From Cellulosilyticum lentocellum DSM 5427 (lineage in GTDB: Bacteria > Bacillota > Clostridia > Lachnospirales > Cellulosilyticaceae), in the NCBI RefSeq assembly GCF_000178835.2, contig NC_015275.1, positions 703,001-767,000 on the forward strand: 64,000 bases of DNA, given 5' to 3'. Both the position numbers and the translations under genes were made by a program. The first letter of the stretch is position 1. Every line of letters starts with the position of its first letter. Positions 25,404 to 52,835 of the stretch are shown in pieces. The notes below the pieces were generated by a model. It was not told the origin of the DNA and ran no database searches. It saw only the letters and a program-made list of their open reading frames with translations.

Positions 25404-26597
25404 ATGATTGCTGTTGGAATAGATGTTTCAAAATCCAAAAGCACTGTTGCTATCTTAAATTCCAATGGTTCTTTACTTGTCAAGCCATATACAATGACAC
25501 ATACTCAATCCGATATGTGTGCCTTGGTTGACTATTTATGTACCTTTGATGAACCCATTACCATTCTCATGGAGTATACAGGTCACTATCACTATCCAGT
25601 ACTTAAAAAGCTACAACAGGAAGGATTCCCTGTCTGCATTATCAATCCATATCAAATGAAAAAATATGCCGACGTTGAAATCCATAAAGCAAAAACTGAT
25701 AAAAAAGATGCTATCAGAATTGCTACATATGCTCTGGAAAAGTCTTATAAACTCGTCCCCTATAACTCATTGGAGCAGAAGTATGAAGATCTGAAATTTT
25801 TGTCAAGGCAATATAATCAACGAATTTCCTCTGTGTCCTATACAAAGGTTCAGTTGATTAACCTACTTGACCAGACAATGCTGGGAATTACTCGCTTACT
25901 TCCTCTAAAGAGCAAGAATCCTGAACAATGCGTTTTATTACTTTTTATCAAACGCTTTAAATCTTTTGATGAAATCAACAAAATCGGCAAAACACGTTTT
26001 CTTTCCAGTTATACAACACTTGTGAAGAAAACTTGCGACCGCCACGCTCCAAGTAAAGGATTGGCAATATATGAGCTTGCCACTAACAGTATTACAACCC
26101 GCGGTGAAGACCCATATATTCAGCTTGCTCAAAGTCAATGCGTAGACCTTTTAGCAACTTCACAGAATGCAGCAGATGAGATTATCCTGCAAATGCAGAC
26201 CATGGCTGAAACCATACCTGAATATAAAATCCTCAGGGCTATGGCTGGCGTAGGTGATAGACTTGGTCCAATAATACTTGCTGAGATTGGTGATATTCGC
26301 CGTTTTCATAGTGGTAAAGCTCTTAATTCCTTTGCTGGAAATGATGCGCCACCTTATCAATCCTGGCAATTCGAGAGCAGAAACCGCCACATATCAAAAC
26401 GTGGTAGTGCCACCCTCAGAAAAGCTTGTTTTGAGGTTATGCAGGCTCTCAAACTGACAAAACCTCAAGATGATCCCGTCTACCTTTTTATGTTAAAAAA
26501 GGAGCAGGAAGGAAAACCCTACAACGTAGCCAAAATGGCTGGTGTAAATAAGTTTCTCCGAATTTACTACGCTCGTGCGATGGAGCTTTATAAGTAA
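25404..26597 (+). CDS. IS110-family DEDD transposase/recombinase
   Basis: 397 aa. The N-terminal RuvC-like DEDD domain begins AVGIDVSKSKSTVAIL and contains MEYTGHYHYPVLKKL and KTDKKDAIRIA, giving the acidic positions. The C-terminal Transposase_20 domain has RAMAGVGDRLGPIILAEIGD, SFAGNDAPPYQS and the catalytic-serine region KRGSATLRKACFE. It has the full length of the family with no stops, so it is probably functional. AAGGAGG lies eight bases before the ATG. It would act with the RNA encoded just upstream to choose target and donor DNA. Confidence 0.93.
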   Translation: MIAVGIDVSKSKSTVAILNSNGSLLVKPYTMTHTQSDMCALVDYLCTFDEPITILMEYTGHYHYPVLKKLQQEGFPVCIINPYQMKKYADVEIHKAKTDKKDAIRIATYALEKSYKLVPYNSLEQKYEDLKFLSRQYNQRISSVSYTKVQLINLLDQTMLGITRLLPLKSKNPEQCVLLLFIKRFKSFDEINKIGKTRFLSSYTTLVKKTCDRHAPSKGLAIYELATNSITTRGEDPYIQLAQSQCVDLLATSQNAADEIILQMQTMAETIPEYKILRAMAGVGDRLGPIILAEIGDIRRFHSGKALNSFAGNDAPPYQSWQFESRNRHISKRGSATLRKACFEVMQALKLTKPQDDPVYLFMLKKEQEGKPYNVAKMAGVNKFLRIYYARAMELYK

Positions 26598-26718
26598 ATC
26601 CGAGTTTATTATCATATATTTTTGAAAAATCTACAATACGTAGGTTTATTAAGGTTACCCTTTTTAAAGATGAAATTTCTTAAAATTCTTCTTGACAAAC
26701 ATTAGCAAGATTTGTCTT

Positions 26719-27140
26719 GGATGTTTATGAGAAATACGTCTGAGAGAAAATGAGTGGGTATGGGTGCCTTCCGTTGTTCCGGTTCACATTTTTTGAAGCA
26801 CTAAGTTCACTTATTTAGATGAACGGCAGAACTCACTTCGTTCAAACAGCTGCCTAAAACCCATCTAAAGCGTTCACTAAGTGCTTCTAAAAAATGCTCC
26901 CAAGTCACTACTTCAGGCACCCATACCCACTCATTTTCACAAACGTTATTGACCTCATAAACGTCCGAGACAGTGAAGCAGTGTGGAAAGAAGACGTAAC
27001 AACAATTGGTAACTTGTACGCAATTTAAAAACACTTAGAACCGGGAGCAGATGCCTAGAGCAATAATGTATCAAGCTTCCTATAAGTCTGTTTTGCCAAG
27101 AAGTAGCTAAGTAGGGAAGCTAGAGAGCTTACTCTTTTTT
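26719..27140 (+). ncRNA. Large structured non-coding RNA candidate, copy A
   Basis: No credible gene lies in 26598-27351. Nested pairing is extensive: 26719-26731 with 26954-26966 (one T-G pair); a perfect 23-bp stem, 26747-26769 with 26915-26937; TTTTTTGAAGCAC with GTGCTTCTAAAAAA; TTTAGATG with CATCTAAA; GGCAG with CTGCC. A later AGCTTCC/GGAAGCT stem leads to a small hairpin and TTTTTT at 27135-27140, a plausible end. Copy B keeps the same architecture with compensating base changes. TTGACA occurs at 26692-26697 but no good -10 box follows. The strand is inferred from the terminator-like end. Confidence 0.6.
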
Positions 27141-27212
27141 CTTGAAAACACTTAAGAGAGGTAGCTTTATGCATTATCCTCTCGTTTCCTCCCAGCAGCA
27201 TTTCTCATAAAC
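26719..27212 (+). repeat. Dispersed repeat unit A (structured RNA plus downstream motif)
   Basis: Shared with 39289-40250. Beyond the RNA-like part, GAGAGGTAGCTTTATGCATT (from 27156) matches GAGAGTGGCTTTACGCGTTA (from 40125). GTTTATGAGAAAT at 26723-26735 has an exact inverted partner at 27200-27212, which may mark the unit's ends. Confidence 0.55.
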
Positions 27213-27351
27213 GATTAGACTGATTTCTATTTATAATATAGACTTAATAGTTAAAAAGTATTATTGACGATGGGATAGTTGTAAGCATATTTGCAAATGG
27301 CTTTATGCTAGAGAAAATAGTTAACAATTGTGTAGGTGTTAATAAAAAATT

Positions 27352-28350
27352 CTATATGTAAGAATAGTACTCCAGTTTTCGGATTTCCCAATCTATAGAT
27401 TCACCTATATCAGGTTGAGATGGCTTGCTGTGAAATATCTCATTAGCATAAGTTTTTTCTAATGAACCGATGTCGAGACCACAGACTTTGGAGATATAGG
27501 CTAAATTGGCTCTTTCTTTTACTAGATGGCTAATTGCAGCTTTCATAATTGGTTCGATTGGATATGTTCTTGTTTTGTCTGGAATTTTAAATATTTGTTG
27601 ATCCTTTATAAAGGAACAAAACCAAGTGTTTAGAACTTCAGCTCTAAAGGTTGATCCAGCAATATATTTAAATATTTTATCTTGTCCTCGTATGGCTTCA
27701 TTAGATTCACTTTTTGCTAGTTCCAATACAAGTTTTAAATCTCGTCTCAAAGAATTAGGAATTGAAATTTTCACTTCATTCACAGTTACAGTTCTTAAGT
27801 CTTGGCTAAAGTTAGAGTATTTTAAATTGCATATTACTTGTCTTTTTGCTGGTGCAATTAGAGTGAGTTTAATAACTAGTCGTAATACAGACCAATGAAG
27901 ATATCTTTTTTTGTTATTTATTCCTTCCAATGAAGAATACTCTACTTCTAAACAATCATCTAATTTTGAGAGAATATCTTTTATAGTATTCATATGAAAT
28001 ATTTCTCTTGAAACTTTTTGAGCTAAGTTAAATTCGTCTGTTAAGCTGTTCTTGTACTCTTCATAATTCATTTGTGAAAAAATATCAGGTGATTTACCTG
28101 CTTCAAGTAAGTAATCATAAAAGTTCTTAAAGGACTCCAAATACGATTCCATAGTTTTTATTTTTGTTAAAACTTCAGATTCAACATAGTATCCTATACA
28201 ATTACGAATGTCATCTAAATCAATATTATTTGGTGTATTACTCTTGTTAATGAACTTTAAATAATCAATAAGTTTATTTACTTGATTTTTATACCTATCC
28301 CCCTTAGCTTTCAAGTATTCATTACGCCATCCTTCCATTATAGTAGGCAT
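27352..28350 (-). CDS. Divergent tyrosine-recombinase-like protein
   Basis: 332 aa. The N-terminal part (about 1-110) resembles a SAM-like core-binding domain (MESYLESFKNFYDYLLEAG). The C-terminal part has TLIAPAKRQVICNLKYSNF where integrases carry the first catalytic Arg, and LAYISKVCGLDIGSLEKTYA where they end in the nucleophilic Tyr. The HxxR block is not recognisable (PIMKAAISHLVKE stands there), so activity is doubtful. Start: ATG with AAGGAG upstream. It faces the structured repeat A, about 140 bases away. No phage genes adjoin. The call rests on pattern similarity only. Confidence 0.45.
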   Translation of the reverse strand: MPTIMEGWRNEYLKAKGDRYKNQVNKLIDYLKFINKSNTPNNIDLDDIRNCIGYYVESEVLTKIKTMESYLESFKNFYDYLLEAGKSPDIFSQMNYEEYKNSLTDEFNLAQKVSREIFHMNTIKDILSKLDDCLEVEYSSLEGINNKKRYLHWSVLRLVIKLTLIAPAKRQVICNLKYSNFSQDLRTVTVNEVKISIPNSLRRDLKLVLELAKSESNEAIRGQDKIFKYIAGSTFRAEVLNTWFCSFIKDQQIFKIPDKTRTYPIEPIMKAAISHLVKERANLAYISKVCGLDIGSLEKTYANEIFHSKPSQPDIGESIDWEIRKLEYYSYI

Positions 28351-28414
28351 ACTAACTCAACTCCTTATTCTTATGATTATAAAATTGAGAAAAACAAAAA
28401 TATTAATACAAATA

Positions 28415-28442
28415 AATATATCATAGTTGTAATTTTTATCAA
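28415..28442 (-). promoter_or_regulatory. Possible promoter for the recombinase-like gene
   Basis: On the minus strand TTGATA (28442-28437), a 16-base spacer, and TATATT (28420-28415), about 65 bases before the start codon. The remaining bases of the 28351-28623 gap are AT-rich with no other clear signal. Confidence 0.4.
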
Positions 28443-28623
28443 TACAAAACACAATAAAGTTAGCATTTTAATTAATACTGACTAAGATGAATTTCTATAA
28501 AGTATTGGAAATAAAGGGATTTATAATTGTGTTAAAAAATTGTAGTGATGACTATTGGGATTTTTAATGAAAATAGAAGTTATTAAGTTTGATATAGTAA
28601 GAGCAGACTTTAGGAGAAGTTGA

Positions 28624-28672
28624 ACATATAAAAAATACATCCTGATGCAGTTAGGATGTATTTTTTATATGT
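28624..28672. terminator. Bidirectional terminator hairpin
   Basis: A perfect 20-bp stem (28624-28643 with 28653-28672), with A runs on one arm and T runs on the other. It can end the minus-strand MFS transcript and any plus-strand transcription. Confidence 0.88.
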
Positions 28673-28715
28673 TTTCTATTTAAAATTTTATATCTATAGA
28701 AAATCAATCAGTGCT

Positions 28716-29912
28716 TTATGAGTTATGTATTTGTTGCCTGCTTATAAGCATACAGATTATTACGCCTATAATCAATAAGACAGGAAAGACAGTCGCAGCA
28801 ATAATACCTACCCTAAGATTGTCATTAAACAGACTAGATACTGTACCTACAACAGTTGGTCCAATAGAGCATCCCACATCCCCGGCTAGTGCTAAAAAAG
28901 CGAACATAGCTGTTCCACCTCTTTTAATTTTAGCAGATGACATGCTAAATGTTCCAGGCCAAAGAATACCAACAGCTAAGCCACATATGCCGCACCCAAT
29001 TAGGCTTAATATAGGTAGTGGGGACAGTGAAATAATAAGATAACTTAAAAAGCAAAGAATCCCACTACCTAGCATCATTTTTTCTAGATTTATTTTTTCT
29101 CCCCATTTACCATACAAGGTTCTTGAGAGTCCCATCATAATGGCAAAGAACATAGGTCCTGCTAAGTCTCCAATAAACTTATTTACTTCAAGTCCTTTTT
29201 CAGCAAAAGTTGAAGCCCATTGACTAACAGCTTGTTCACTTGCTCCAGCACATATCATTAAAAGCATCATATTCCAAAAGATTTTTTTAGAAAACATTTC
29301 TTTTAAGGTGAGTCCATTCTCATTATCTTCAATTAAATGAGAAACAGGTACCTTTGCAAAGAAAAAGGTATTAAGTACAGGGATAATAGCCCATAGAAGA
29401 GCTAGTACCTTCCAAGCTGAAGTGCCAAACAAAGTGAAAAATAAGGTTGATAGTAAAACTACTCCCACATGACCCCAACAATAGAAGGAATGTAATAGAC
29501 TCATGGCAGCTTCTTTATTATCTGTGGGACAAGCTTCTACAATAGGACTTATAAGTACTTCAATAAGGCCACCGCCAACAGCATAAATCATAACTGAAAT
29601 CATCAATCCTATAAAAGGATCACTAAAAACTTCTGGCAGTATAGTAAGCGATATAAGGCCTAAAGCAGAAAAAATATGGGCAATAATCACAGAAGCCTTG
29701 TAACCGATTTTATCTATAAATCCTGTTGACAATAAATCAATGACTAATTGTATTCCAAAATTAAAGGTTACTAAAAAAGTAATTTTAGAAATGGGTATAT
29801 CATATAGTGATTGAAAAGTTAAAAATAATAAAGGTATAAAGTTATTAATAATGGCCTGAACGATATAGCCAGTGAATGAAGCATACATCGTGTGCTTATA
29901 CTGAAAATTCAT
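28716..29912 (-). CDS. Major facilitator superfamily transporter
   Basis: 398 aa from the ATG at 29912, which has AAAGGAG six bases upstream; an ATG 27 bases earlier lacks a site. About 12 membrane helices are visible. DKIGYK after helix 2-3 fits the MFS loop signature, and helix 4-5 carries YAVGGGLIEVLISPIVEACP. The best fit is the sugar-efflux or fucose-permease-like branch, but the substrate is unknown. It is monocistronic and ends at a bidirectional terminator. Confidence 0.83.
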   Translation of the reverse strand: MNFQYKHTMYASFTGYIVQAIINNFIPLLFLTFQSLYDIPISKITFLVTFNFGIQLVIDLLSTGFIDKIGYKASVIIAHIFSALGLISLTILPEVFSDPFIGLMISVMIYAVGGGLIEVLISPIVEACPTDNKEAAMSLLHSFYCWGHVGVVLLSTLFFTLFGTSAWKVLALLWAIIPVLNTFFFAKVPVSHLIEDNENGLTLKEMFSKKIFWNMMLLMICAGASEQAVSQWASTFAEKGLEVNKFIGDLAGPMFFAIMMGLSRTLYGKWGEKINLEKMMLGSGILCFLSYLIISLSPLPILSLIGCGICGLAVGILWPGTFSMSSAKIKRGGTAMFAFLALAGDVGCSIGPTVVGTVSSLFNDNLRVGIIAATVFPVLLIIGVIICMLISRQQIHNS

Positions 29913-30091
29913 ATTGCTCTCCTTTAAAAACAAAGTCATGATTTCATTATATAGTATTTTTCTTATTATTTTTGCGGTTTTTATAAATCCTATAGTATAT
30001 TACCGGTAAATTATAAAAGTTATAGTATATTCATCTTTAAGAAATTTATAGATCAAAAGAATTAGTCTTTAGTAGCCCTTATTCTTTATTC

Positions 30092-30209
30092 TATAATGAG
30101 GTTAAGGTGTTTTTGTGATGAGAGAGATGATATGCTAAGGACATCATATCAGAGGAGGAAATGTCTTATGATTACACCAGTTCAAATGTGTTCTTATTCT
30201 ATTCAATAA
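30092..30209 (+). promoter_or_regulatory. Leader of the DUF1062 gene with possible small upstream reading frame
   Basis: The 29913-30296 gap holds a TATAAT at 30092-30097 (weak -35 TTAGTA at 30069) and then AGAGGAGG at 30151-30158. That strong ribosome site serves no long gene. It precedes ATG 30168 (13 codons, MITPVQMCSYSIQ) or ATG 30161 (26 codons), both ending before the real gene at 30297. GATATG/CATATC can pair just upstream. A leader peptide or decayed gene start are equally possible. Confidence 0.3.
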
Positions 30210-30296
30210 TAAGCTGTATGAAAATAGGAATACATTTTTAAATTAAAATAAAAAATCTTATATTTTTGTGCGGCTTCATAAAAAAAGGAGCACAAG

Positions 30297-30872
30297 ATGC
30301 AAGAGATTATTAGATGGAAGGTTATACCTATCAATGAACCCAATGTAATAAGGAATTGTTCTAAATGTGGAGGAAAGGCACACTTTGAAAATAGTAAAAA
30401 ATTTAGAGTGAATGCTAATCAAAGTAAATTAGATGTTTGGCTTATCTACCAGTGTAAAAAGTGTAAGACAACATGGAATATGACTATTTTGTCAAGAGTT
30501 AATCCAAAAGAAATACCCAATAATCAGTATAAACGGTTTATAGATAATGATAAGGAGCTTGCAAGATTTTACGCATTTGATGCAGATACTCATAGAAGAA
30601 ATGGTTCAATTCTAGATTACCATGAAATAGAATATACAATAGAAGGAAAAACACTGGATATACAAGCATTGGAAGAAAAGGTAACCATACTTCTGGAATG
30701 TGAAGAAGTATTTACTATACGCATGGATAAAGTATTAAGTAGGCAATTGGAGATATCTAGAGCCCAAGTTAGAAGTTTAGCAGAAAAAGGTATATTAAGT
30801 AGTAGGGAAGAAAAGAAATTATGGAAGTCTAAGTTAAAAAGCGAAATGTATATAGACATCCTACCACAGTAA
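30297..30872 (+). CDS. DUF1062 protein with N-terminal zinc ribbon
   Basis: 191 aa. A zinc ribbon is formed by CSKCGG (about 21) and CKKCKTTWN (about 53). The block KFRVNANQSKLDVWLIYQC between them is the family signature. The C-terminal half (about 140-190) is basic and has an S4-like flavour (LSRQLEISRAQVRSLAEKG), suggesting RNA binding. Function is not established. Start follows AAAAAAGGAGC. It stands alone with its own terminator. Confidence 0.82.
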   Translation: MQEIIRWKVIPINEPNVIRNCSKCGGKAHFENSKKFRVNANQSKLDVWLIYQCKKCKTTWNMTILSRVNPKEIPNNQYKRFIDNDKELARFYAFDADTHRRNGSILDYHEIEYTIEGKTLDIQALEEKVTILLECEEVFTIRMDKVLSRQLEISRAQVRSLAEKGILSSREEKKLWKSKLKSEMYIDILPQ

Positions 30873-30928
30873 TAAGAAACACAGAGATAAAGCTTTTTCT
30901 GTATTTTTATATGAGTGAAATACATATT

Positions 30929-30966
30929 AAAAAGCACGTTTTAGTATAGGCTAGTACGTGCTTTTT
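30929..30966 (+). terminator. Intrinsic terminator (DUF1062 gene, also usable by asd)
   Basis: AAAAAGCACGT pairs perfectly with ACGTGCTTTTT. It lies between convergent genes and works on either strand. Confidence 0.85.
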
Positions 30967-31021
30967 AAATTTCATAATATAAAATAGTTTCTCTCAGAAG
31001 GATTATAAATGATGGAGATAA

Positions 31022-32113
31022 CTAAAGTGATTTTGCAAAGAGATAGCCAGTAGCTACTAGATATTCAGCAGATAATACACCACCTCCAGCAGCACCTCTT
31101 AATGTGTTGTGAGATAAGCAAACAAATTTATAGTCAAATACAGTATCAGCTCTAAGCCTACCAATGGTAATACCCATCCCTTTTCCAAAGTTCCTATCTA
31201 ATTTTGTTTGTGGTCTGTTTTCTTCTTCCATATAGCATAAAAACTTTTCAGGGGAGCTAGGTAGATTTTTGGCCAGTGGATTGAATTCATAATGATTAAG
31301 AGCTTCTAAGATTTCTTCTTTAGTAGGCTTTTTCTTGAAATTCACATAAACAGCAGCTAGGTGACCATCTGAAACAGGTACTCTTAAACACTGAGTTGTA
31401 ATGAGTGGTGAATTGGAATTAACAATCTTACCATTTTGAACACTTCCCCATATTTTATGAGGCTCTTGTTCACTTTTTTCTTCTTCACCAGGTATAAAAG
31501 GAATGACATTGTCTAGGATTTCAGGACATTCTTTGAAGGATTTTCCAGAGCCAGATATGGCTTGATAAGTACAAGCTAGAATAGTTTCTGGTTCAAAAGC
31601 CATTAAAGCTGAAAGTGGTGGCACATAGCTTTGAATAGAGCAATTAGGTTTGACAACGATAAAGCCTCTTTTTGTACCAAGGCGCTTTTTTTGTGAGTCA
31701 ATAACTGCGATATGATGTCCATTAATTTCAGGAATGAGCATAGGTACATCCTCTACATAGCGGTTAGCTGAGTTATTAGAGATGACAGGAATTTCAGCTT
31801 TGGCATAAGCTTCTTCTAAAGCTTTAGTTGCAGCTTTATCTAATGAAATAGCGCAGAAGATAAAATCCACTTTTTGACTAATAAGGTCTATCTGTTCACC
31901 ATCTTCTACCATCATTTGCTTATATTTTTCAGGAATAGGAACAGACATTTTCCAGCGGTCTTTAATAGCATCCTCATAAGGCTTACCGGCAGATTGTTTG
32001 CTAGCTGCTAAAACAGTAACTTCAAACCAAGGATGATTTTCTAAAAGTAAGAGAAAGCGTTGACCTACCATACCAGTAGCGCCGATGATACCTACTTGTA
32101 ATTTTTGTTTCAT
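31022..32113 (-). CDS. asd: Aspartate-semialdehyde dehydrogenase
   Basis: 363 aa from the ATG at 32113, preceded by AAGGAGG; an upstream ATG at 32161 would add 16 residues without a ribosome site. It reduces aspartyl phosphate to the semialdehyde, the branch point for lysine/diaminopimelate, threonine and methionine. Visible are the NADP-binding GIIGATGMVGQRF at the N terminus, catalytic Cys158 in KPNCSIQ, and ISGSGKSF. The sequence is of the archaeal/fungal-like Asd class common in clostridia. A LysR gene diverges from its promoter region. Confidence 0.94.
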   Translation of the reverse strand: MKQKLQVGIIGATGMVGQRFLLLLENHPWFEVTVLAASKQSAGKPYEDAIKDRWKMSVPIPEKYKQMMVEDGEQIDLISQKVDFIFCAISLDKAATKALEEAYAKAEIPVISNNSANRYVEDVPMLIPEINGHHIAVIDSQKKRLGTKRGFIVVKPNCSIQSYVPPLSALMAFEPETILACTYQAISGSGKSFKECPEILDNVIPFIPGEEEKSEQEPHKIWGSVQNGKIVNSNSPLITTQCLRVPVSDGHLAAVYVNFKKKPTKEEILEALNHYEFNPLAKNLPSSPEKFLCYMEEENRPQTKLDRNFGKGMGITIGRLRADTVFDYKFVCLSHNTLRGAAGGGVLSAEYLVATGYLFAKSL

Positions 32114-32255
32114 TTCACAAACCTCCTTAATGAATGATTGAATTTTCTTTTTTATTAGCATATGATAAAATCAAACATTAGTAAAATTGATAATATAGAT
32201 AATATCATTCGATTTTTTTGAACTATAGAAACTTCATTAATAGGAGGTTGGTCTT

Positions 32256-33137
32256 ATGGATTTAAAGCAGCTGAATACCTTTCTGATGATTAGTAAATTG
32301 CAAAGCTTTACAAAAGCAGCAGATACACTTAATTATGCTCAGTCTTCTGTAACTACTCAAATTAAGTTGTTAGAAGAAGAGTTAGGTGTAAAGTTATTTG
32401 AGAGGATTGGAAAGAATATATCATTGACACATGATGGTAAGAAGCTTATTCCTTATGCACAGCAAATGCTGAAGCTCTCTACAGATATTAAAAATAATAT
32501 TAGTGAAGATGAGTACCCAAAAGGTGTTTTGACCATTGGCGTAGCAGAATCTTTGTGTGTCATACGCTTGCCAGAGATTATTAAGGAATATAGAAAACTA
32601 TATCCAGAAGTGGAGATAGCCCTTAAATTTGGAAGTTGTGCAGATTTTAGACGCTATTTAAATGATAATCTAATAGATGTAGCTTTTTCGTTAGGAGCCA
32701 AAATTGATGGAGGTGAATTTATTTCTGAGATAGAAAGAGATGAATCGATGCTACTTTTAGCTTATCCAGGTCATCATTTATTAGAAAAAGAAAAGATTCT
32801 TCCAGAAGATTTAGAAGGAGAGTCACTTATTTTAACAGAAGTGGGTTGTAGCTACAGAGCAGCCTTTGAACGCATTTTAAAAGATGAGGGGATTAGTCCT
32901 CGTATCACTCTAGAATCAGGTAGTGTTCATGCTATTAAACAATTTACTATGAGTGGATTAGGCATATCATTACTCCCTCGAGTAGCAGTTGAAGAAGAGG
33001 TAAAAAGTGGTAAGTTAATACCACTAAAATGGCAAGGGGCAGAATTTGAAATAGTTTCACAGGTTTTATATCATAAAAATAAATGGATCTCACCGGCGTT
33101 AGATGCGTTTATTAATTTGTGCAAAGAGATGTTATAA
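32256..33137 (+). CDS. LysR-family transcriptional regulator
   Basis: 293 aa. The N-terminal winged helix (about 2-60) reads LKQLNTFLMISKLQSFTKAA then QSSVTTQIKLLEEELGVKLF. The rest (about 90-290) is the periplasmic-binding-like effector domain. The 142-base gap to asd includes GATAATATAGATAATATC, an A/T-rich imperfect dyad of the kind LysR proteins bind; it could serve both genes. The ligand is unknown; CysB/CbbR-type relatives sense metabolites. Start follows TAGGAGG. Confidence 0.88.
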   Translation: MDLKQLNTFLMISKLQSFTKAADTLNYAQSSVTTQIKLLEEELGVKLFERIGKNISLTHDGKKLIPYAQQMLKLSTDIKNNISEDEYPKGVLTIGVAESLCVIRLPEIIKEYRKLYPEVEIALKFGSCADFRRYLNDNLIDVAFSLGAKIDGGEFISEIERDESMLLLAYPGHHLLEKEKILPEDLEGESLILTEVGCSYRAAFERILKDEGISPRITLESGSVHAIKQFTMSGLGISLLPRVAVEEEVKSGKLIPLKWQGAEFEIVSQVLYHKNKWISPALDAFINLCKEML

Positions 33138-33285
33138 GTAAGTTGGTTTTTAATTTTGTGCAGCATTAAGTATGAAATAAACATTAATTAAAAAAGAACA
33201 TAGTAATAGCTCCTCAGACCAATATGATATGTTTTACTGTGCTTAAAATAGCAAAATATAAAATCTAGGGTTTCAAAACAGAAGA

Positions 33286-34200
33286 CTAAAGAAATTTTTT
33301 CTTTTTACAAATCCAAATACTTAAGCAAATAATAGCTAAGCTGATGGCAATAACAAGAGGATAACCATACTTCCATCTTAATTCAGGCATATAAGTAAAA
33401 TTCATACCATACCAACCCGCAATTAAAGTAAGTGGCAAAAAGATAGTAGTTACTACAGTTAAAATCCTCATGGTATTATTTTGTTTAATATCTATTTGGG
33501 ATTGATATTCTTCTCTTACCTGAAGGGCATATTCTCTTAGCATTTGTACATTACTTTGAAGACGACTGACTCTCCTTGTAAAAAAGTCAAAAAGTCTTAG
33601 GTTATGTTCGTTAAAGAAATCATTTTCATTTTCTCCCAAGACCTCTCCTACCTCTACAAGTTGTGAGTAATAGTAATGAAGTGTTAGAAGTTCTTTTCTA
33701 AAATCCATAAGCGTATGATTAAAATGAGTAATTTCTCCATTCAAAATGGTAGATTCCATCTTAGCAATTCTATTTTCAAGTTCCTCTAAATAAAGCAAAT
33801 CCTTATCAATAAGGAGTTCCAAAAAATTACTAAAGAAAGTCTCCAAGGTAGGCGTATCCCAAGTTCTGGTATGACTCATTTTTTCAAGTAAAGCTTTGAC
33901 TAAATCGCTATCATCCACAAAGACAATGCCATCCTTGTGAATATAATAGATAAAGCGCTTTTTTTGTTTAGAGTTTTGTTTTGAGGGTATACAAAAGGTT
34001 CCTAACATATAATCAGCATAGTTTTCTAATTTGCATAAATGAATATTTGCATAGCTCTTAAAACTTTCTGCATGCACACTAGAAGTAGCACCACTAGTTT
34101 GCCACTCCTTTAATGTCACTATTTGTACGGTCTTTACGGTTAAATCCCCTTGTGGCTTATCTTCTAAAGGTACAAGCCGTTCTTTAATCATATAATACAT
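33286..34200 (-). CDS. CorA-family divalent metal transporter
   Basis: 304 aa. The N-terminal soluble domain ends in a long helix region (about 130-240). Two C-terminal membrane helices follow (about 243-263 and 278-297), with the pore signature YGMNF between them. This is the CorA layout for Mg2+ (or Co2+/Ni2+) uptake. A basic KKKKFL tail ends the protein. Start at 34200 has AGGTGA five bases upstream. Confidence 0.9.
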   Translation of the reverse strand: MYYMIKERLVPLEDKPQGDLTVKTVQIVTLKEWQTSGATSSVHAESFKSYANIHLCKLENYADYMLGTFCIPSKQNSKQKKRFIYYIHKDGIVFVDDSDLVKALLEKMSHTRTWDTPTLETFFSNFLELLIDKDLLYLEELENRIAKMESTILNGEITHFNHTLMDFRKELLTLHYYYSQLVEVGEVLGENENDFFNEHNLRLFDFFTRRVSRLQSNVQMLREYALQVREEYQSQIDIKQNNTMRILTVVTTIFLPLTLIAGWYGMNFTYMPELRWKYGYPLVIAISLAIICLSIWICKKKKFL

Positions 34201-34439
34201 TAACTCACCTGATTTCTCGATTGTTCATTGTTTTTCCACCATAAACGCTTAACTCTTCATTTATACTTCTCACTCTTCAGACTTCCTAATTTTTATTTTA
34301 TCACTTTCTAGAAAAAAGGATACCTTATAAAATTTAGGCATCTAATACAAAAAATAAAGGTATTCAAAAGTATAACAGGAATTTCATCTGCTGAGTATAG
34401 AAAGAATAGCGACTGAGCAAAATAAATCTTAAAAAGTAG

Positions 34440-34468
34440 TTGACATATGTAATGGGATGGTGTATATT
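34440..34468 (+). promoter_or_regulatory. Promoter of the 5S rRNA-tRNA-Gly unit
   Basis: TTGACA (34440-34445), a 17-base spacer and TATATT (34463-34468). Downstream, GTCGTC...GACGAC (34476-34496) forms a leader hairpin just before the 5S gene, a possible processing site. Confidence 0.8.
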
Positions 34469-34501
34469 TAAATAGTCGTCAAGAGAAATGACGACGAAAT
34501 T

Positions 34502-34618
34502 TCTGGTGATGATGCGCTTAAGGGAAACACCCGTTTCCATTCCGAACACGTAGGTTAAGACTTAAGCGGCTGATGGTACTTGTCGGGAGACTGACTGGGA
34601 GAGTAAGTGGTTGCCAGA
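34502..34618 (+). rRNA. rrf: 5S ribosomal RNA, free-standing
   Basis: 117 bases beginning TCTGGTG and ending CCAGA, so the terminal helix closes. It has the conserved CCCGTTTCCATTCCGAACAC loop and the GGGAGA region. No 16S or 23S gene is present on either side; the unit has its own promoter and continues into a tRNA-Gly gene six bases later. Confidence 0.93.
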
Positions 34619-34623
34619 TTTAT

Positions 34624-34696
34624 GCGCGAGTGGCTCAGTTGGTAGAGCATCTCCTTGCCAAGGAGAGGGTCGCGGGTTCGAGTCCCGTCTCGCGCT
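34624..34696 (+). tRNA. tRNA-Gly (anticodon GCC)
   Basis: 73 bases with acceptor stem GCGCGAG/CTCGCGC and T discriminator. The anticodon loop TTGCCAA lies between CTCC and GGAG, and the T loop is GGTTCGAGTCC. No CCA is encoded. It is co-transcribed with the 5S gene. Confidence 0.95.
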
Positions 34697-34703
34697 TATG
34701 AAA

Positions 34704-34730
34704 CCCCTTGAATTTCAAGGGATTTTTTTT
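34704..34730 (+). terminator. Intrinsic terminator of the 5S-tRNA-Gly unit
   Basis: CCCTTGA/TCAAGGG with a three-base loop, followed by eight T. Confidence 0.88.
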
Positions 34731-35185
34731 GTGCAGATACATAATTTATGGCATAGTTAATCAAGACTCATTTCCGCTATTTGCTCGTATGTTAGAAAAA
34801 GCAGAAACTCATCTATGAAATTTAATTCTTTCTCCCTTTCTCTTGTACTTTTAACATTTCTTTAAATTCACCACTTTTATACAGATAGAAATAAAACTTG
34901 ATTTAATAGGGTTAGTATCAAAACATAATACCTTTTATGAAATACAGAAAACAAATGAAAATATTCAGAAGTTTAACTTGAGTTTGGATTAATTAGCTGA
35001 TATATTTTAAGTATAATAAGGAAAGGATGTGATTGGTATGTTTAAAAAATATAGCATTGTTGTTGAGGTGGCATTAGGATAAAGCCGATGGCATCTTGAC
35101 CATTTTTTAACCGCCTTAGGTTGTTATTCTTTTGCCTCCTTCAACTATGAAGATCAAAAAATAACAATAATGGGAGGTTCTGCAA
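34731..35185. other. Gap with possible minus-strand gene remnant and leader
   Basis: No intact gene. On the minus strand, 34925 to 34757 reads as KSGEFKEMLKVQEK in one frame and ELNFIDEFLLFLTYEQIAEM in another before a stop, which looks like a frameshifted protein tail; the family is unknown. From 35038 a 14-codon plus-strand frame (MFKKYSIVVEVALG) follows AAAGGATG and stops early. The methyltransferase ribosome site, GGGAGG, closes the gap. Confidence 0.3.
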
Positions 35186-35905
35186 ATGCGGAATTTTATT
35201 TTAAAAGAAAAGTATAATACATTAATTCAAAGTTTAATTGATGATTTTAATAACAGTCATAGCTATAAATATATCATGGGACCAGATGCATTATGTCTTA
35301 TTGAAATTTTATGTGAAAAAATGAATCTAAAACCTGGCATGCGTGTATTGGACATGGGTTGTGGAGCAGGCTTCACTTCAATTATATTGGCAAAAGAATT
35401 TGGTGTTACTGTATTTGCAAATGATTTATGGTCTTGTGCAACTGAGAACTATGAGCGATTTGTAAAAGCTGGAGTAGAAGATAGAGTATTCCCTTTTAGA
35501 GCGGAAGCGCATAATCTTCCTTTTGCAAGTAACTTTTTCGATGCAGCTATCAGCATTGATGCTTATCATTACTTTGGTACAGATGAATGCTATTTATGTG
35601 ATCATTATGCTAAGCTAGTTAAACCAGGTGGACAGTTTGGCCTTGTCAATCCTGGTCTTTCAAAGGAGTTTACTAACGGTCTACCAGAAAAAATGAAGCC
35701 TTTCTGGGAACCTAATATGTATGCTTGGCACAGCGCAGGGTGGTGGCAACAGCTCTGGGAAAAGACAGATTTGGTGGATGTTACTTGTGCGCAAGAAATT
35801 CCTGATGGCAAATCAATCTGGAGAATGACTGCTGATTATGATCTCCATGATGCGGATATAGAAAATTACCTTACATTAGTACTTATGACAGCAATAAGAA
35901 AGTGA
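35186..35905 (+). CDS. SAM-dependent class I methyltransferase
   Basis: 239 aa. Motif I, VLDMGCGAGFTSIILA, lies at about 54-69. FANDLW provides the acidic ribose-binding region, followed by FRAEAHNLPF and FDAAISIDAYHYFGTDE (motif IV region), then LVKPGGQFGLV. This is a complete small-molecule-type (UbiE-like) methyltransferase fold. The substrate is unknown. Start follows GGGAGG eight bases away. It is monocistronic with a terminator at 35934. Confidence 0.88.
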   Translation: MRNFILKEKYNTLIQSLIDDFNNSHSYKYIMGPDALCLIEILCEKMNLKPGMRVLDMGCGAGFTSIILAKEFGVTVFANDLWSCATENYERFVKAGVEDRVFPFRAEAHNLPFASNFFDAAISIDAYHYFGTDECYLCDHYAKLVKPGGQFGLVNPGLSKEFTNGLPEKMKPFWEPNMYAWHSAGWWQQLWEKTDLVDVTCAQEIPDGKSIWRMTADYDLHDADIENYLTLVLMTAIRK

Positions 35906-35933
35906 TGTTATATGGATGATTAAACTAATTAAT

Positions 35934-35970
35934 GAAGCCGTAAATTCGAAAAAAGAATTTACGGCTTTTT
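35934..35970 (+). terminator. Intrinsic terminator after the methyltransferase
   Basis: GAAGCCGTAAATTC pairs with GAATTTACGGCTTTT around an A-rich loop, with T5 at the end. Confidence 0.88.
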
Positions 35971-35989
35971 GTGTTTATAGAGATGATTA

Positions 35990-36118
35990 CTAGAGAATAA
36001 GATTATTAATAATTAGAGATAGTCCGGAAAAGATAAGCATTATAATCACTATCTTCTTTACATGTTTTTCTTTAAACACTTGTGATAAAGCTATACCAAT
36101 AAAGAGGACTAATAACAT
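35990..36118 (-). pseudogene. C-terminal fragment of a membrane protein
   Basis: A 42-codon minus-strand frame reads LLVLFIGIALSQVFKEKH and then IVIIMLIFSGLSLIINN before its stop. Two hydrophobic helices with a basic loop look like the last helices of a transporter, perhaps TauE/SafE-like. It has no ribosome site and the upstream frame is closed by a stop, so it is probably decayed. The rest of 36119-36242 holds only the leader of the next gene (TATAAT at 36186-36191). Confidence 0.4.
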
Positions 36119-36242
36119 AAAAGGTTAATTGTATAAAAATTATTACGAATAGATAACATAAGTACGTTACACCATAAATGTGGGATATAATGATTAGAGT
36201 TAGTTCATACTAAAGTGGAAGATATTCTAGGAGAGTGAGAAA

Positions 36243-37163
36243 ATGTATAAGAAAAGATTCTTAAGTGCAGTATTAGCAATGAGTTTATTAGTAACGCAAG
36301 CCAGTGTAATGGCTCAGGTAGTAAGTGTTAATGAAGTAGAACAAGCAACTCAGATTGTTATGGATCAAAAAGAAGAAAAGGGCTTATATTTAGTTCAAAA
36401 GGGTGAAATAACAGAATTAGATACAACAAAACATGGTACACGTATTTTAGTAGGAGATTATAATAATGGTATCTTTTTTAATCTGCAACCTAAAGTACCT
36501 GTATTAGATGCTAATACGTTAAGCTTTAAATCTCAAAAGGATTTAAAAGAAGGGATGGAAGTAACTGTTATATATCCCAAGAATTCACCAATGGCATTAA
36601 GTCAACCACCAATGTCTTCATCAGCTGTTTTAGTTATAATCAATTCACCTAAAAATTCGATAGAAGTAGGATACTTTGATGAAAATCTAGTAAATGAAGC
36701 GAATACCTTGAAACTTAATATTGGTGAAAATACAGTGATTAAGAATATAAAAGGTGAATGCCGCGTCTTTACTGCTGATGATATTAAAAATAAAAATGCA
36801 GCTGTTATTTATGATGTAACTACACGTAGTATTCCAGCGCAAACGACACCACTTTTTGTAATGATTTTAGATGATGAAAAAGTAGCTAGTGAAGAGTTAA
36901 TAAATGAGAATGGCGAAAGAGAAACGGAAGTAACAGCTGATTATAAAGTGCTACGAGAGATTGCTACTGATTTAGAATATGAAATCAATTGGGATAATGA
37001 AAATAAGCAAGTTACTCTCACTAAAGGAGAATTAGAAGTAACCTTTAAAATAGGAGAATCAACGTGTTCTATTAATAATCAAGTAAAAACACTACAGCAA
37101 GTAAATAAATTACAAGCAGGTAGTATTTTGGTTTCTGAGGAGACAGCTCATTTATTAAAATGA
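36243..37163 (+). CDS. Secreted protein with copper-amine-oxidase-N-like (stalk) domain
   Basis: 306 aa. A signal peptide is clear (YKKRFLSAVLAMSLLVTQAS, cleavage after VMA). The middle (about 40-220) is beta-rich and unassigned. The C terminus (about 232-306) matches the Cu_amine_oxidN1 stalk pattern: VLREIATDLEYEINWDNENK, then QVTLTKGELEVTFKIGE and a final small strand. Such domains are common on clostridial cell-surface proteins and do not imply amine oxidase activity. Start follows AGGAGAGTGAG. Confidence 0.75.
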   Translation: MYKKRFLSAVLAMSLLVTQASVMAQVVSVNEVEQATQIVMDQKEEKGLYLVQKGEITELDTTKHGTRILVGDYNNGIFFNLQPKVPVLDANTLSFKSQKDLKEGMEVTVIYPKNSPMALSQPPMSSSAVLVIINSPKNSIEVGYFDENLVNEANTLKLNIGENTVIKNIKGECRVFTADDIKNKNAAVIYDVTTRSIPAQTTPLFVMILDDEKVASEELINENGERETEVTADYKVLREIATDLEYEINWDNENKQVTLTKGELEVTFKIGESTCSINNQVKTLQQVNKLQAGSILVSEETAHLLK

Positions 37164-37292
37164 TCTGTATAAAAATATACAATATTTCGCAAATGGTGAT
37201 ACTTTTTGTTTTAAACAGACATTGCCTATGGTAGAATAAATCTGTATATGAAGAAAATATGTTCATGTACAAAATTCTATGGGGGTGAAAAG

Positions 37293-37862
37293 ATGTTTGA
37301 GAGAAGTTATTATGGAGGAGTAAGTAACGCAGGTGCTATAGGAGTATGTTTTTTAGTAGCTATTATTGGTGGTATACTTTTATACTTTCTATTTTTAACA
37401 CCTAAAAACGACAAGAAGTTTACAGGTTTTATGGGATGGTTATATGATTTTTTGGCTTTTAAGAAACTCTTAGTGGAAGCAATATTAAAGGTTATTTATT
37501 TAATATCTGCATGTTTTATAACTTTATTAGGAATTGTTTCTTTGTTTGATTCATTTGTATTAGGCATTGCGATCATTGTTTTATGGAATATTATATTAAG
37601 AATTTCTTATGAGTTTTTATTAGTACTCATCATTATTTGCAAAAATACAAGTGAGATTAACAAAAAGATTTCAGGGAAAGATACAAGCGAAGCTGATATG
37701 TTTGTAAGTCAAGTAGAAATCCCAAAATCAGTAGTGGAGCAGTTTACAGCTAAAACGTCACCAACTACAACAGCAGAACCAGAAGTGTTTTGTAAAAGCT
37801 GTGGTCAAAAAATGAAGATAGATTCTACTTTTTGTCCAAACTGTGGGCAAAAGAACGAATAA
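37293..37862 (+). CDS. Membrane protein with C-terminal zinc ribbon
   Basis: 190 aa from the ATG at 37293, five bases after GGGGGTG. Three or four hydrophobic segments (about 16-36, 62-84, 87-118) precede a cytoplasmic tail. The tail ends in a double-Cys ribbon (CKSCGQKMK, then CPNCGQKNE) of the zinc_ribbon_2 type. The family and role are unknown. GGGCAT/ATGCCTT forms a weak terminator at 37870-37899. Confidence 0.65.
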   Translation: MFERSYYGGVSNAGAIGVCFLVAIIGGILLYFLFLTPKNDKKFTGFMGWLYDFLAFKKLLVEAILKVIYLISACFITLLGIVSLFDSFVLGIAIIVLWNIILRISYEFLLVLIIICKNTSEINKKISGKDTSEADMFVSQVEIPKSVVEQFTAKTSPTTTAEPEVFCKSCGQKMKIDSTFCPNCGQKNE

Positions 37863-37935
37863 ATAATGTGAGGGCATTCTAGGATGCCTTCTTTTTATTA
37901 GTCTAGATTTTTTCAAAAAAAAGTAAAATAATTGC

Positions 37936-37964
37936 TTGACATATGGTAATAAATTTTGTATCAT
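37936..37964 (+). promoter_or_regulatory. Promoter of tRNA-Gly (TCC)
   Basis: TTGACA (37936-37941), a 17-base spacer and TATCAT (37959-37964), 24 bases before the tRNA. Confidence 0.78.
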
Positions 37965-37987
37965 TTATATAGTGATAAACAACATTT

Positions 37988-38058
37988 GCGGGTGTAGTTC
38001 AATGGTAGAACTTCAGCCTTCCAAGCTGACTACGTGGGTTCGATTCCCATCACCCGCT
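37988..38058 (+). tRNA. tRNA-Gly (anticodon TCC)
   Basis: 71 bases with acceptor stem GCGGGTG/CACCCGC and T discriminator. The anticodon loop CTTCCAA lies between TCAGC and GCTGA, and the T arm is GGGTTCGATTCCC. No encoded CCA. Confidence 0.95.
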
Positions 38059-38063
38059 TACTT

Positions 38064-38109
38064 AAATAAGAGTTGCGAAATGAAAAGTTTCGTAGCTCTT
38101 ATTTTTTTG
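38064..38109 (+). terminator. Intrinsic terminator after tRNA-Gly (TCC)
   Basis: AAATAAGAG...CGAAA pairs with TTTCG...CTCTTATTT, followed by T residues. Confidence 0.82.
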
Positions 38110-38177
38110 ATTCTATTCATAAAAAAAGTAATTTACTTCTTGATATAATTTGTTATTACTTATAAGAAGTGATTATA

Positions 38178-38262
38178 TTATCCCCATAAATAACCACATA
38201 CTAACAAGGAAATAACAAGTTATACACAGAGTACATGCCTTTTATCCTCAAAATGTGGATAA
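38178..38262. promoter_or_regulatory. Cluster of four DnaA-box-like sites
   Basis: TTATACACA (38220-38228) and TGTGGATAA (38254-38262, the complement of TTATCCACA) match the DnaA-box consensus exactly. TTATCCCCA (38178-38186) and TTATCCTCA (38242-38250) differ at one base. A strongly AT-rich stretch follows to about 38330. No dnaA or dnaN is near, so a titration or regulatory cluster is more likely than the chromosome origin. Confidence 0.5.
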
Positions 38263-38380
38263 AATTAATTTGAACTATTAAATAATTAATACTATAATTT
38301 TAATTAGCTCAGTTTGTTTGGACATATAAAAATTATTATTAACTAGTTAAAATAATTTATATTTAAAAGAGGTGATAGGT

Positions 38381-39271
38381 ATGAAACAGGTTATATCTGT
38401 AGCAGTTGTAAATTTTAATGCTAGATGGGGAGAGAAAAGCATTAACTATGAAAGAATAGTAGGATATATAGAGGCTGCTAGTAGAAGGGGAGTAAATCTT
38501 ATTGTTTTACCAGAATTATGTTTAACAGGTTATGATGATGAAAACCATGTGGCTAAAGAACAAAAGATGCAAGTTAGGTTAGCGGAAAATAAATATGGAG
38601 AAATGGTGAGTGAACTATTAGATTTAGCTAAAGTATATAATATGTATATCGTGCTGGGGATGCCTGAGAGAAATAAGAAGGATGATGCAACTATTCATAA
38701 CTCGGCATTAGTACTTACACCAGAAAGTATGAGTTACACTTATAGAAAAATACATTTAGCTTTAGATGAACCTAATTGGGCTACGCCAGGGGAAGAGCCA
38801 CTTCTAGTAGAAACACCTTGGGGACCTATAGGAATTGCTATTTGTTATGATATATATGCATTTCCAGAACTAATTCGTTATTATGCAGCTAAAGGAGCAA
38901 GACTGATTGTGAATAGTACTGCATATGCTAAAAGTAGAGGAGCAGCTAAAGGGAGAACGACTTTAGAAAGTACGGTTTTAATGAATGGCGTATACGTAGC
39001 AACGGCTAATTTATGTGGCATAGATTTAGTGAATGATTTTTGGGGAGGCAGTAGCATCATTGGGCCTTCTAGAAAGATGCAAGAGGTTTATTATTACGCA
39101 GGTAAACCCTTTGATGCACCAGATGCAGGTGAGCAAGAAATGTATATAGCTACTATTGATCTAAGCTTAGCTGAAAGAGGGATCTTTAAAGAGAACTCTA
39201 GACTAGGACATTCGGATTTTAGGCCAGAACTTTATGCGAAATGGTATAAAGAGCTTGCAGGAGAAAAGTAG
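38381..39271 (+). CDS. Carbon-nitrogen hydrolase (nitrilase superfamily)
   Basis: 296 aa from the ATG at 38381, eight bases after AAAGAGGTG. The catalytic triad is visible: Glu45 in VLPELCLTGY, Lys123 in YRKIHLA, and Cys155 in IAICYDIYAFPE. Members hydrolyse nitriles or, more often, amides such as N-carbamoylputrescine or omega-amides. The exact substrate cannot be named. The gene sits alone between the DnaA-box cluster and the structured repeat B, which begins 17 bases after its stop. Confidence 0.88.
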   Translation: MKQVISVAVVNFNARWGEKSINYERIVGYIEAASRRGVNLIVLPELCLTGYDDENHVAKEQKMQVRLAENKYGEMVSELLDLAKVYNMYIVLGMPERNKKDDATIHNSALVLTPESMSYTYRKIHLALDEPNWATPGEEPLLVETPWGPIGIAICYDIYAFPELIRYYAAKGARLIVNSTAYAKSRGAAKGRTTLESTVLMNGVYVATANLCGIDLVNDFWGGSSIIGPSRKMQEVYYYAGKPFDAPDAGEQEMYIATIDLSLAERGIFKENSRLGHSDFRPELYAKWYKELAGEK

Positions 39272-39288
39272 AGATGTACCTCAGTGGT

Positions 39289-40066
39289 TATAAGGAATGC
39301 TACTGGGTGGAAATGCGAGAATAAGGGCTACCTTCCGGAATTCCGCTCCTTATTTTTTGAAGCACTAAGGCTCACTTTTTTGATGAACGTGCGAAAACTC
39401 CCGTTGGTCAAACACTCGCACTAAAACCCATCAAAAAAGTTCGCCAAGTGCTTCTAAAAAATACTACGAAGTCATTCCTACAGGCAGCCCTTATCCTTGC
39501 ATTTCTTACAACTATTATTAACCTTATATGCGTTCAAGCACCTAAACGAGGAGTGCAGAAAATGCATAATAACAATTTGTTTTTTATTAGGGAATCGGTT
39601 GCTTGGGTACATATACATAAGTGTAAGAACAAATAAATAACTTCCTACGGCATAATTACCACAGCTTCAACCTGAGGAACTGACCGGGTCAGCCAAGTCT
39701 CAATCTATTGTTATAGGTACCTCTGGACTTAAGGAAGATGTTCACTGGTGCGCTGCAAGGAAGGCGCCATTTATAAGTTGTTTTTAATGTTTTTATACCC
39801 CGCATTACCCAAAATAAAGTTTTAAATCAGAGTCTTAAGGTCTTAGCTTCCTAGCATAGGGTGCACCGGCCAAGACTTTTAGGAGCTCCTCACTCATTGG
39901 TTTAACTTTCATAGCTAGTCTTAGTAGGCACTAAGCAATAACGCATGCGTGCTGAGGAGCCATCTTGCGCCTTGATTAAGGTCTATTTAGCTAGCCGTGA
40001 AGGTTTATTTCAAGAGCCTGGAACAAAAATAGCTCTTCAAGTTATAATACTTGAGGAGCTATTTTT
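39289..40066 (+). ncRNA. Large structured non-coding RNA candidate, copy B
   Basis: The 39272-40511 gap has no credible gene. The first 240 bases repeat the architecture of copy A: TATAAGG/CCTTATA; 39315-39333 with 39482-39500 (16 Watson-Crick pairs and one G-T of 19); TTTTTTGATG/CATCAAAAAA; GTGCGA/TCGCAC; and GTGCTTCTAAAAAA pairing back to TTTTTTGAAGCAC. Several pairs differ from copy A on both arms. An extra middle part adds more hairpins (CTGAC/GTCAG near 39678). AAAAATAGCTC with GAGCTATTTTT at 40025-40066 makes a strong terminator-like end. Confidence 0.6.
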
Positions 40067-40156
40067 ATTGCCTCTAACTACTATAAATAAAATTGATTAG
40101 CTTTTTTTATTAAAAACAATTCATGAGAGTGGCTTTACGCGTTATTGTTGGTAGAA

Positions 40157-40216
40157 CTGAGAGAGGGTGGCTGTCCTGACGGAGCCAAGCCACGCAGGAT
40201 AGTCACCTTCTCTCAG
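40157..40216 (+). other. 22-bp hairpin whose only irregularities are G-U pairs
   Basis: 40157-40178 pairs with 40195-40216 around a 16-base loop. All three departures from perfect complementarity are G on the left facing T on the right, so the stem is intact as RNA but not as a perfect DNA palindrome. This favours a function in RNA transcribed from the plus strand. Confidence 0.6.
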
Positions 40217-40294
40217 CTTTGCCCAAATAGCTAGTAAAGTCCAAGGCAAATTTTAACTAAGATATTTAAATAAGTTAGTTATATATAAATTATT

Positions 40295-40375
40295 AAGGAC
40301 CATTCTGTGTTACTTAACCTATGATTAGTATGAAAGAAATACTTCTGGTTAAGTACTTAGGGTAGTCCTTTTTTT
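40295..40375 (+). terminator. Two-part terminator before the tubulin/GTPase operon
   Basis: AAGGAC pairs with GTCCTT and, inside, ACTTAACC with GGTTAAGT; seven T follow. It insulates the operon from transcription through repeat B. Confidence 0.75.
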
Positions 40376-41619: not shown

Positions 41620-41620
41620 G

Positions 41621-43387: not shown

Positions 43388-43401
43388 GAGGAGGCGGGCA
43401 A

Positions 43402-45183: not shown

Positions 45184-45207
45184 TAGAAGGGCAAAGGGAG
45201 GAAGAAA

Positions 45208-48594: not shown

Positions 48595-48626
48595 TTTAAT
48601 AAAAATCAAAAAGGGGGGACCTTAGC

Positions 48627-50948: not shown

Positions 50949-50951
50949 AGG

Positions 50952-52166: not shown

Positions 52167-52174
52167 GCTAAAAG

Positions 52175-52807: not shown

Positions 52808-52835
52808 ATAAGTAAATATTGAAAGGAGTGAAGAA

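Follow-up and report, generated by a model that had tools for sequence, protein, structure and literature searches.

Two non-coding units in a 64,000-nt stretch of the Cellulosilyticum lentocellum DSM 5427 chromosome, hereafter the window (positions 703001–767000 of a single-contig genome of 4,714,237 bp), contain two distinct sequence modules, A and B. On balance, module A is a DNA fold-back repeat, while module B, which of the two units only the second contains, is somewhat more likely than not a multiplied gene for a free-standing structured RNA with its own predicted promoter and terminator. A first-pass annotation of the window had described the two units, of about 420 and 780 bases, as a two-copy family of large structured RNAs with compensatory base changes. 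A large structured RNA with covarying stems does appear to be present, as the roughly 450-nt module B and not as the 420- and 780-base units, which are based on A. The copy number, boundaries, paired changes, RNA-type mismatch bias and shared upstream motif of module B, together with an empty insertion site in congeners, were all computed from the sequences; that its product is a trans-acting RNA is our best guess.

The first unit consists of module A followed by a tail, and the second of module A followed by the separate module B. The units have in common only a palindrome of about 300 bp, module A (26703–27006 and 39266–39576). As mapped by BLAST, the shared part ends near 39576, and the remainder of the second unit (39588–40067) is module B, which is missing from the first; the supposed 780-base copy is thus a composite. 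Nor are there just two copies, since a 531-base query around the first unit has 85 matches in the same genome and a 1111-base query around the second has 88, counts in which fragments, hits to other modules and hits of the palindrome to the opposite strand are included.

Copies, Boundaries and Signals of Module B

Thirty copies of module B were aligned with their flanks, and one with an internal deletion was dropped, leaving 29 in the core alignment. The aligned copies start at TTAGGGA (with two or three variants) and finish in a terminator hairpin. Within the window, module B is made up of the following parts:

39588..39615, + strand: promoter-like motif TAGGGA-N15-ACATATA (exact in 32 of 41 B loci; genome counts)
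39587..39782, + strand: 5′ domain with promoter, model R1 (29-copy alignment; domain missing from short members)
39622..40067, + strand: predicted transcript, with the start placed from the motif (boundaries from 29 aligned copies)
39822..40024, + strand: 3′ domain, model R2 (41 sense loci; 60-pair structure)
39885..39892, + strand: linker GCUCCUCA, able to pair with the apical loop (at all 8 positions in 30 of 36 members, which were located with these motifs)
39893..40019, + strand: long hairpin of about 50 bp (arm-permutation energies; G·U bias)
39953..39960, + strand: apical loop UGAGGAGC (hairpin fold; loop–linker pairing count)
40029..40067, + strand: terminator hairpin and T-run (found behind 35 of 41 loci, with 14-bp arms)

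Searching this genome with a covariance model built on the 3′ domain, which contains neither promoter nor terminator, gives 51 matches. Ten of these lie on the strand opposite a sense match, which reduces the count to 41 loci, two of them partial. The exact promoter-like motif lies 49–240 nt upstream of 32 loci, and a version with a single mismatch precedes three more. Downstream, a hairpin with 14-bp arms and a T-run follows 35 of the 41 loci, compared with 0.85% of 820 Markov-resampled sequences and none of 41 windows taken 400 nt further on. The sequence of the terminator hairpin varies between subfamilies, and within subfamilies it does so by paired changes. The 5′-domain motif is found upstream of 29 of the 41 loci, and short members run straight from the promoter-like motif to the 3′ domain.

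As sequence signals, module B would therefore have the promoter and intrinsic terminator of a free-standing non-coding RNA gene, predicted to encode a structured RNA that measures about 450 nt, or less where the 5′ domain is missing. Transcription would start at a dedicated class of promoter and end at the module's own terminator. If replication starts at coordinate 1 and terminates on the opposite side of the chromosome, 29 of the 41 loci would point against replication.

Fold and Covariation of Module B

The 3′ domain comprises an outer helix (AGAGUCUU/AAGACUU), an inner GGUC/GGCC helix, and then the hairpin of about 50 bp. The hairpin was studied in 36 members, namely 29 long and six short or divergent members from this genome and one from a congener (G005). 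Arms of the same member fold with a mean energy of −39.7 kcal/mol, compared with −29.6 kcal/mol for permuted arms, and 0 of 10,000 permutations reach the observed value. Among 21 members less than 75% identical, a member's own partner arm ranks best of 21 in 10 cases. The isolated mismatches in these 21 divergent members comprise 45 G·U, 12 A·C and 30 others (p 1.3e-5), and this excess of G·U over A·C is the mismatch pattern of an RNA.

When 35 copies are fitted to the model, 91.0% of cells pair. Changes on both sides are seen in 27 of the 60 pairs, and amount to 165 cells against 51.5 in shuffles, with 0 of 500 shuffles reaching that number. In a tree-aware covariation test restricted to the structure, four of the 60 pairs pass, while versions with the structure slid along the alignment give 0, 0, 0, 0, 1 and 0. 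Permutations, mismatch bias and restricted tests all point to RNA-level selection on structure; the unrestricted test is negative. Among its best pairs, 126–133, 88–167 and 74–180 are paired in 29 of 29 copies. Covariation, which the first-pass annotation proposed to examine in a larger alignment, is significant within B when the search is confined to the structure, and not significant otherwise. RNAalifold run on a MAFFT alignment of the 3′ domain chose the helix between loop and linker and missed the long hairpin, with changes on both sides in two of 25 pairs.

The apical loop UGAGGAGC is complementary to the linker GCUCCUCA just 5′ of the hairpin. All eight positions can pair in 30 of the 36 members, seven in four and six in two. 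This conservation is partly by construction, because the same motifs, with listed variants, served to find the members. Matching changes are seen in two divergent members, one at 1.209 Mb (ACUCCUCA/UGAGGAGU) and the other the G005 homologue (GCCCCUC/GAGGGGC). Since a rigid helix of about 50 bp holds the loop far from its own base, the pairing could take place between molecules, and the loop of one B RNA may possibly bind the linker of another. Mimicry of a Shine-Dalgarno sequence by UGAGGAGC was considered and dropped, because the G005 loop UGAGGGGC changes together with its partner GCCCCUC.

The Promoter-Like Motif beyond Module B

The exact motif occurs at 37 sites in the genome, against one for the reversed pattern, and 32 of the 37 belong to B loci. 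Of the remaining five, one lies before a tRNA, one before a RepA_N/DnaD-like initiator, one before a DUF1659-DUF2922 gene pair, and two before RNA-like stretches free of genes (48,229 and 1,208,993). The tRNA as delimited by Rfam (tRNA-Gln by eye) starts 6 nt behind the motif, and one B locus lies 219 bp behind this motif-driven tRNA.

Within the family (23 relatives) the motif has 15 sites against four for the reversed control; outside the family it has four against six, and those four look like chance. By inspection, the 15 family sites precede six DUF1659-like genes, six replication-initiator-like genes, one amidase gene and two gene-free stretches. The proteins scanned behind the motif were the DUF1659, DUF2922 and RepA_N proteins of this genome, two initiator-like proteins (against PHROGs only) and the amidase. 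The motif is thus common to module B and to phage-like replication and endolysin-like genes.

The CATATA half resembles the −10 elements of sigma-E and sigma-K in a close relative, but TAGGGA fits neither of their −35 elements (PMC3416734), and neither factor is assigned to the motif.

Module A Is Best Read as a DNA Repeat

Module A occurs twice in the window:

26703..27006, + strand: module A, subtype A1, palindromic fold-back repeat (29-copy alignment; repeat counts)
39266..39576, + strand: module A, subtype A2, palindromic fold-back repeat with B immediately downstream (29-copy alignment; BLAST map)

All stem arms listed in the first-pass annotation are present in the sequence and lie inside these two intervals, so that the covariation it quoted belongs to a palindromic DNA repeat; the covarying stems of module B lie elsewhere. 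One segment that had been taken as unpaired, GAAGCACTAAG, for the most part pairs with AGTGCTTC on the other arm.

An alignment of 29 near-full copies, which fall into two main subtypes, indicates that the stem is maintained by paired changes, as four of 59 predicted pairs pass the tree-aware test restricted to structure (in this case run without a slid control). An RNA stem tolerates G·U and not A·C, whereas a DNA palindrome treats both alike. With each site and type counted once, the isolated mismatches in the 29 stems comprise 23 G·U and 24 A·C, and over all copies the numbers are 32 and 59, so the G·U excess expected of a structured RNA is absent in both counts. The compensatory changes first noted in these stems are real, but they do not argue for an RNA shape, and a fold-back DNA repeat is the best reading of module A.

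Module A is an extragenic palindrome in many copies, as are repetitive extragenic palindromic (REP) sequences and miniature inverted-repeat transposable elements (MITEs). Classic REPs are shorter than the roughly 300 bp of module A. Neither a target duplication nor a transposase partner was found for it: no clear duplication was seen by eye in the flanks of 29 copies, and two inward-facing A(+)...A(−) pairs enclose only host-type genes and no transposase. Module A would then be a non-autonomous, REP/MITE-like fold-back repeat, kept as a DNA hairpin. A pattern for its loop was found in one metagenome-assembled genome among genome contigs, and the A pattern had no match in viral contigs.

An IS110-family element abuts the 5′ end of the first A repeat:

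25404..26597, + strand: IS110-family transposase gene (Pfam DEDD_Tnp_IS110 5.4e-42, Transposase_20 8.3e-15)

The genome has two full copies of this element (window 25404–26710 and genome 3187604–3189168), 100% identical over the stretch that aligns. In both cases the element terminates at an A repeat, on the 5′ side of the repeat, a further likeness to REP-type targets. Insertion into REP palindromes is known for IS110 elements (PMC1525189).

Distribution of Module B and Its Insertion Sites

The first-pass annotation looked to homologues outside this genome, and these exist but are few. At E ≤ 0.01 the 3′ model matches two of 245 other genomes, a member of the same genus (G005, E 0.004) and a member of the same family (G007, E 4e-4), in a search with stricter filters that scored 10 candidates per genome. 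A second search of the genus with 150 candidates per genome returned the same single match, in G005. The 5′ model matches 10 of 195 other genomes, strongly in G007 (83.8 bits) and weakly in nine (22–32 bits). Four weak matches from the same genus were inspected: in G002, G004 and G006 the motif stands before a 63-aa DUF1659-like open reading frame (ORF), and in G005 there is no such ORF. BLAST gave no match to B in phage or plasmid records. A 17-base B motif has two exact matches among viral contigs, neither of them recognised by model R1 or R2, and the promoter pattern has none there; the B pattern had no match in genome contigs.

Insertion sites could be compared at a few loci. The hisF–hisA site is empty in all four congeners with both flanks on one contig, where 0–118 bp separate the genes instead of about 710–745 bp. 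At the B site of the window itself, about 920 bp are missing from the one congener with both flanks. At a third site, behind glmS, the downstream flank is not syntenic.

Module B is also associated with other repeats. An A or C repeat (module C being a repeat that adjoins A elements) lies within 150 bp of 12 of the 41 B loci, where 0.4 would be expected from uniform placement of 44 intervals; the other 29 have neither, and A also occurs without B. Five B loci have A on both sides in the order A(+)-B-A(−), and two others have a like-oriented A downstream. The same B–A junction is common to two distant loci. Units flanked by A may have carried the younger copies of B.

Several further observations were made around B loci. 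The B homologue of G007 (L091, about 920–1897) sits upstream of genes that resemble, by eye, the BREX genes brxA and brxB. At two loci, ends resembling those of an insertion sequence lie inside or right behind the terminator hairpin (by eye; L101 of G007, about 100–170, and L174, behind the B copy at 671 kb). A stretch behind the B terminator (L057, about 2982–3060, and L061) is matched in part at 14 places in congeners, contig ends among them; it resembles the 5′ end of a group IIC intron, and Rfam returned no group II match for it at E ≤ 0.01. In L061, an open frame about 2 kb upstream of the B copy resembles, by eye, a retron-type reverse transcriptase.

Alternative Explanations

Several results weigh against reading module B as a functional RNA gene. 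In the unrestricted covariation test on 29 full-length copies no pair reaches E < 0.05, and the hairpin arms of 36 members, aligned without gaps, yield no significant pair either (best E 5.3). The alignment behind the 27 doubly changed and four passing pairs was itself fitted to the structure. Six of the 41 loci lack a close match to the motif, with two mismatches in one, three mismatches in two, and no motif at all in three. Over all 58 relatives the motif has 19 sites against 10 for the reversed control. Finally, 41 loci in this genome against matches in two of 245 others is what a selfish element might also produce.

The last point leads to the strongest rival, which has an appreciable though minority chance of being right: module B could be a selfish, non-autonomous mobile element with no role in the cell, its promoter, fold and terminator acting to propagate it or to protect its neighbours. 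It is the strongest because both readings predict amplification in one lineage, and it is favoured as well by the empty his site in four of four congeners and by the repeats flanking 12 loci. However, motif, fold and terminator are still kept in divergent copies, and a function for the RNA is therefore favoured; the motif also precedes ordinary genes in relatives, and inspection found no transposase with B or A.

Module B may instead be a dispersed bidirectional terminator or an antisense insulator for gene 3′ ends, active solely at the level of the DNA or the nascent RNA. The arrangement of neighbouring genes is suggestive: at 21 of 30 loci the next listed ORF (at least 70 aa, called mechanically) is convergent, and at 14 of the 30 it stops no more than 100 bp from B; chance ORFs within A repeats account for two of the former and one of the latter. 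This explanation is nevertheless improbable, given that a bare terminator needs neither a promoter motif, a long conserved fold nor an optional 5′ domain, and that the neighbours vary from locus to locus.

That the two units, one with A alone and the other with A plus B, belong to a single family of giant RNAs is scarcely credible: both regions fold better than shuffled sequences (z −8.2 for 26715–27235 with 100 shuffles and −7.0 for 39270–40080 with 20) and the A stem is kept by paired changes, but 29 B loci stand without a nearby A or C, A is found without B and shows no G·U excess, and the promoter-like motif at which B begins is its own and lies behind A.

Comparison with Known RNA Families

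The first-pass annotation had been unable to match the units to OLE, GOLLD or ROOL, and this held, as Rfam assigned no family to B or A. At gathering thresholds the whole window yields only tRNA and 5S. With E up to 10, the region 39250–40350 has 15 weak matches, all below the gathering score and none to ROOL, GOLLD, OLE or raiA. These four and all other Rfam 15 families were rejected as the identity of B for lack of a covariance-model match, and T-box, group I and group II introns and omega RNA, also considered, were likewise dropped for want of a match.

The closest comparison is with ROOL and GOLLD, which are described as assembling into homo-oligomers through intermolecular loops, and as encoded in phages or prophages, often near tRNAs (PMC12286853). 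Like them, module B is large, structured and without an ORF, and as in GOLLD its 3′ part is conserved and its 5′ part variable (PMC12286853). One B copy lies behind a tRNA, and the B motif is shared with phage-like genes. Module B also has a loop that could pair between molecules, seen in B as loop–linker complementarity alone. By analogy, B may work like ROOL or GOLLD. Unlike them, it has no Rfam match, occupies about 41 chromosomal loci in a single genome and is not matched in phage records. It also resembles the raiA motif RNA (PMC11706538) in being a large structured non-coding RNA of Bacillota; it differs in that neither B nor A matches Rfam.

Other Features of the Window

Around the two units, the following features were mapped:

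27007..27173, + strand: tail of the A1 element, partly common to other A1 loci (BLAST map)
27174..27230, − strand: inverted remnant of the 5′ end of an A element (query 475–531 matches A elements at 82–91%, read by eye)
40103..40253, + strand: module C, repeat adjoining A elements (BLAST map)

Module C also contains a near-perfect hairpin of about 20 bp (window 40158–40220, by eye). Beyond it, a same-strand run of genes (window 40708–56717) encodes VWA domains, a Tubulin_2 protein and a DO-GTPase domain, and has the look of a single operon, possibly for a conflict or cytoskeleton-like system.

Implications

Judged on its sequence, module B would be a large structured bacterial RNA of a new family, with an odd copy number and an odd motif; a search of open-licence PMC papers found no published description of it. 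A structured-RNA gene family with about 41 dispersed members, mostly with a promoter-like motif and terminator of their own, is unusual in a bacterium, and the B paralogues supply a covariation set inside one genome. Counting G·U against A·C mismatches is a simple way to separate an RNA stem from a DNA palindrome.

Having multiplied to about 41 places in this lineage, module B would give rise to an abundant RNA acting in trans, in a structural or sequestering role, and made under one alternative-sigma-like programme. The same programme would drive DUF1659/DUF2922 genes and phage-like replication and lysis genes. A more specific proposal, rather doubtful at present, is that B represents a new class of self-assembling RNA, in which the apical loop of one molecule pairs with the linker of another, and which is made in bulk from its many genes under a programme shared with those phage-like genes, as a chromosomal counterpart of ROOL and GOLLD. 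The motif that module B shares with other genes points to a testable regulon.

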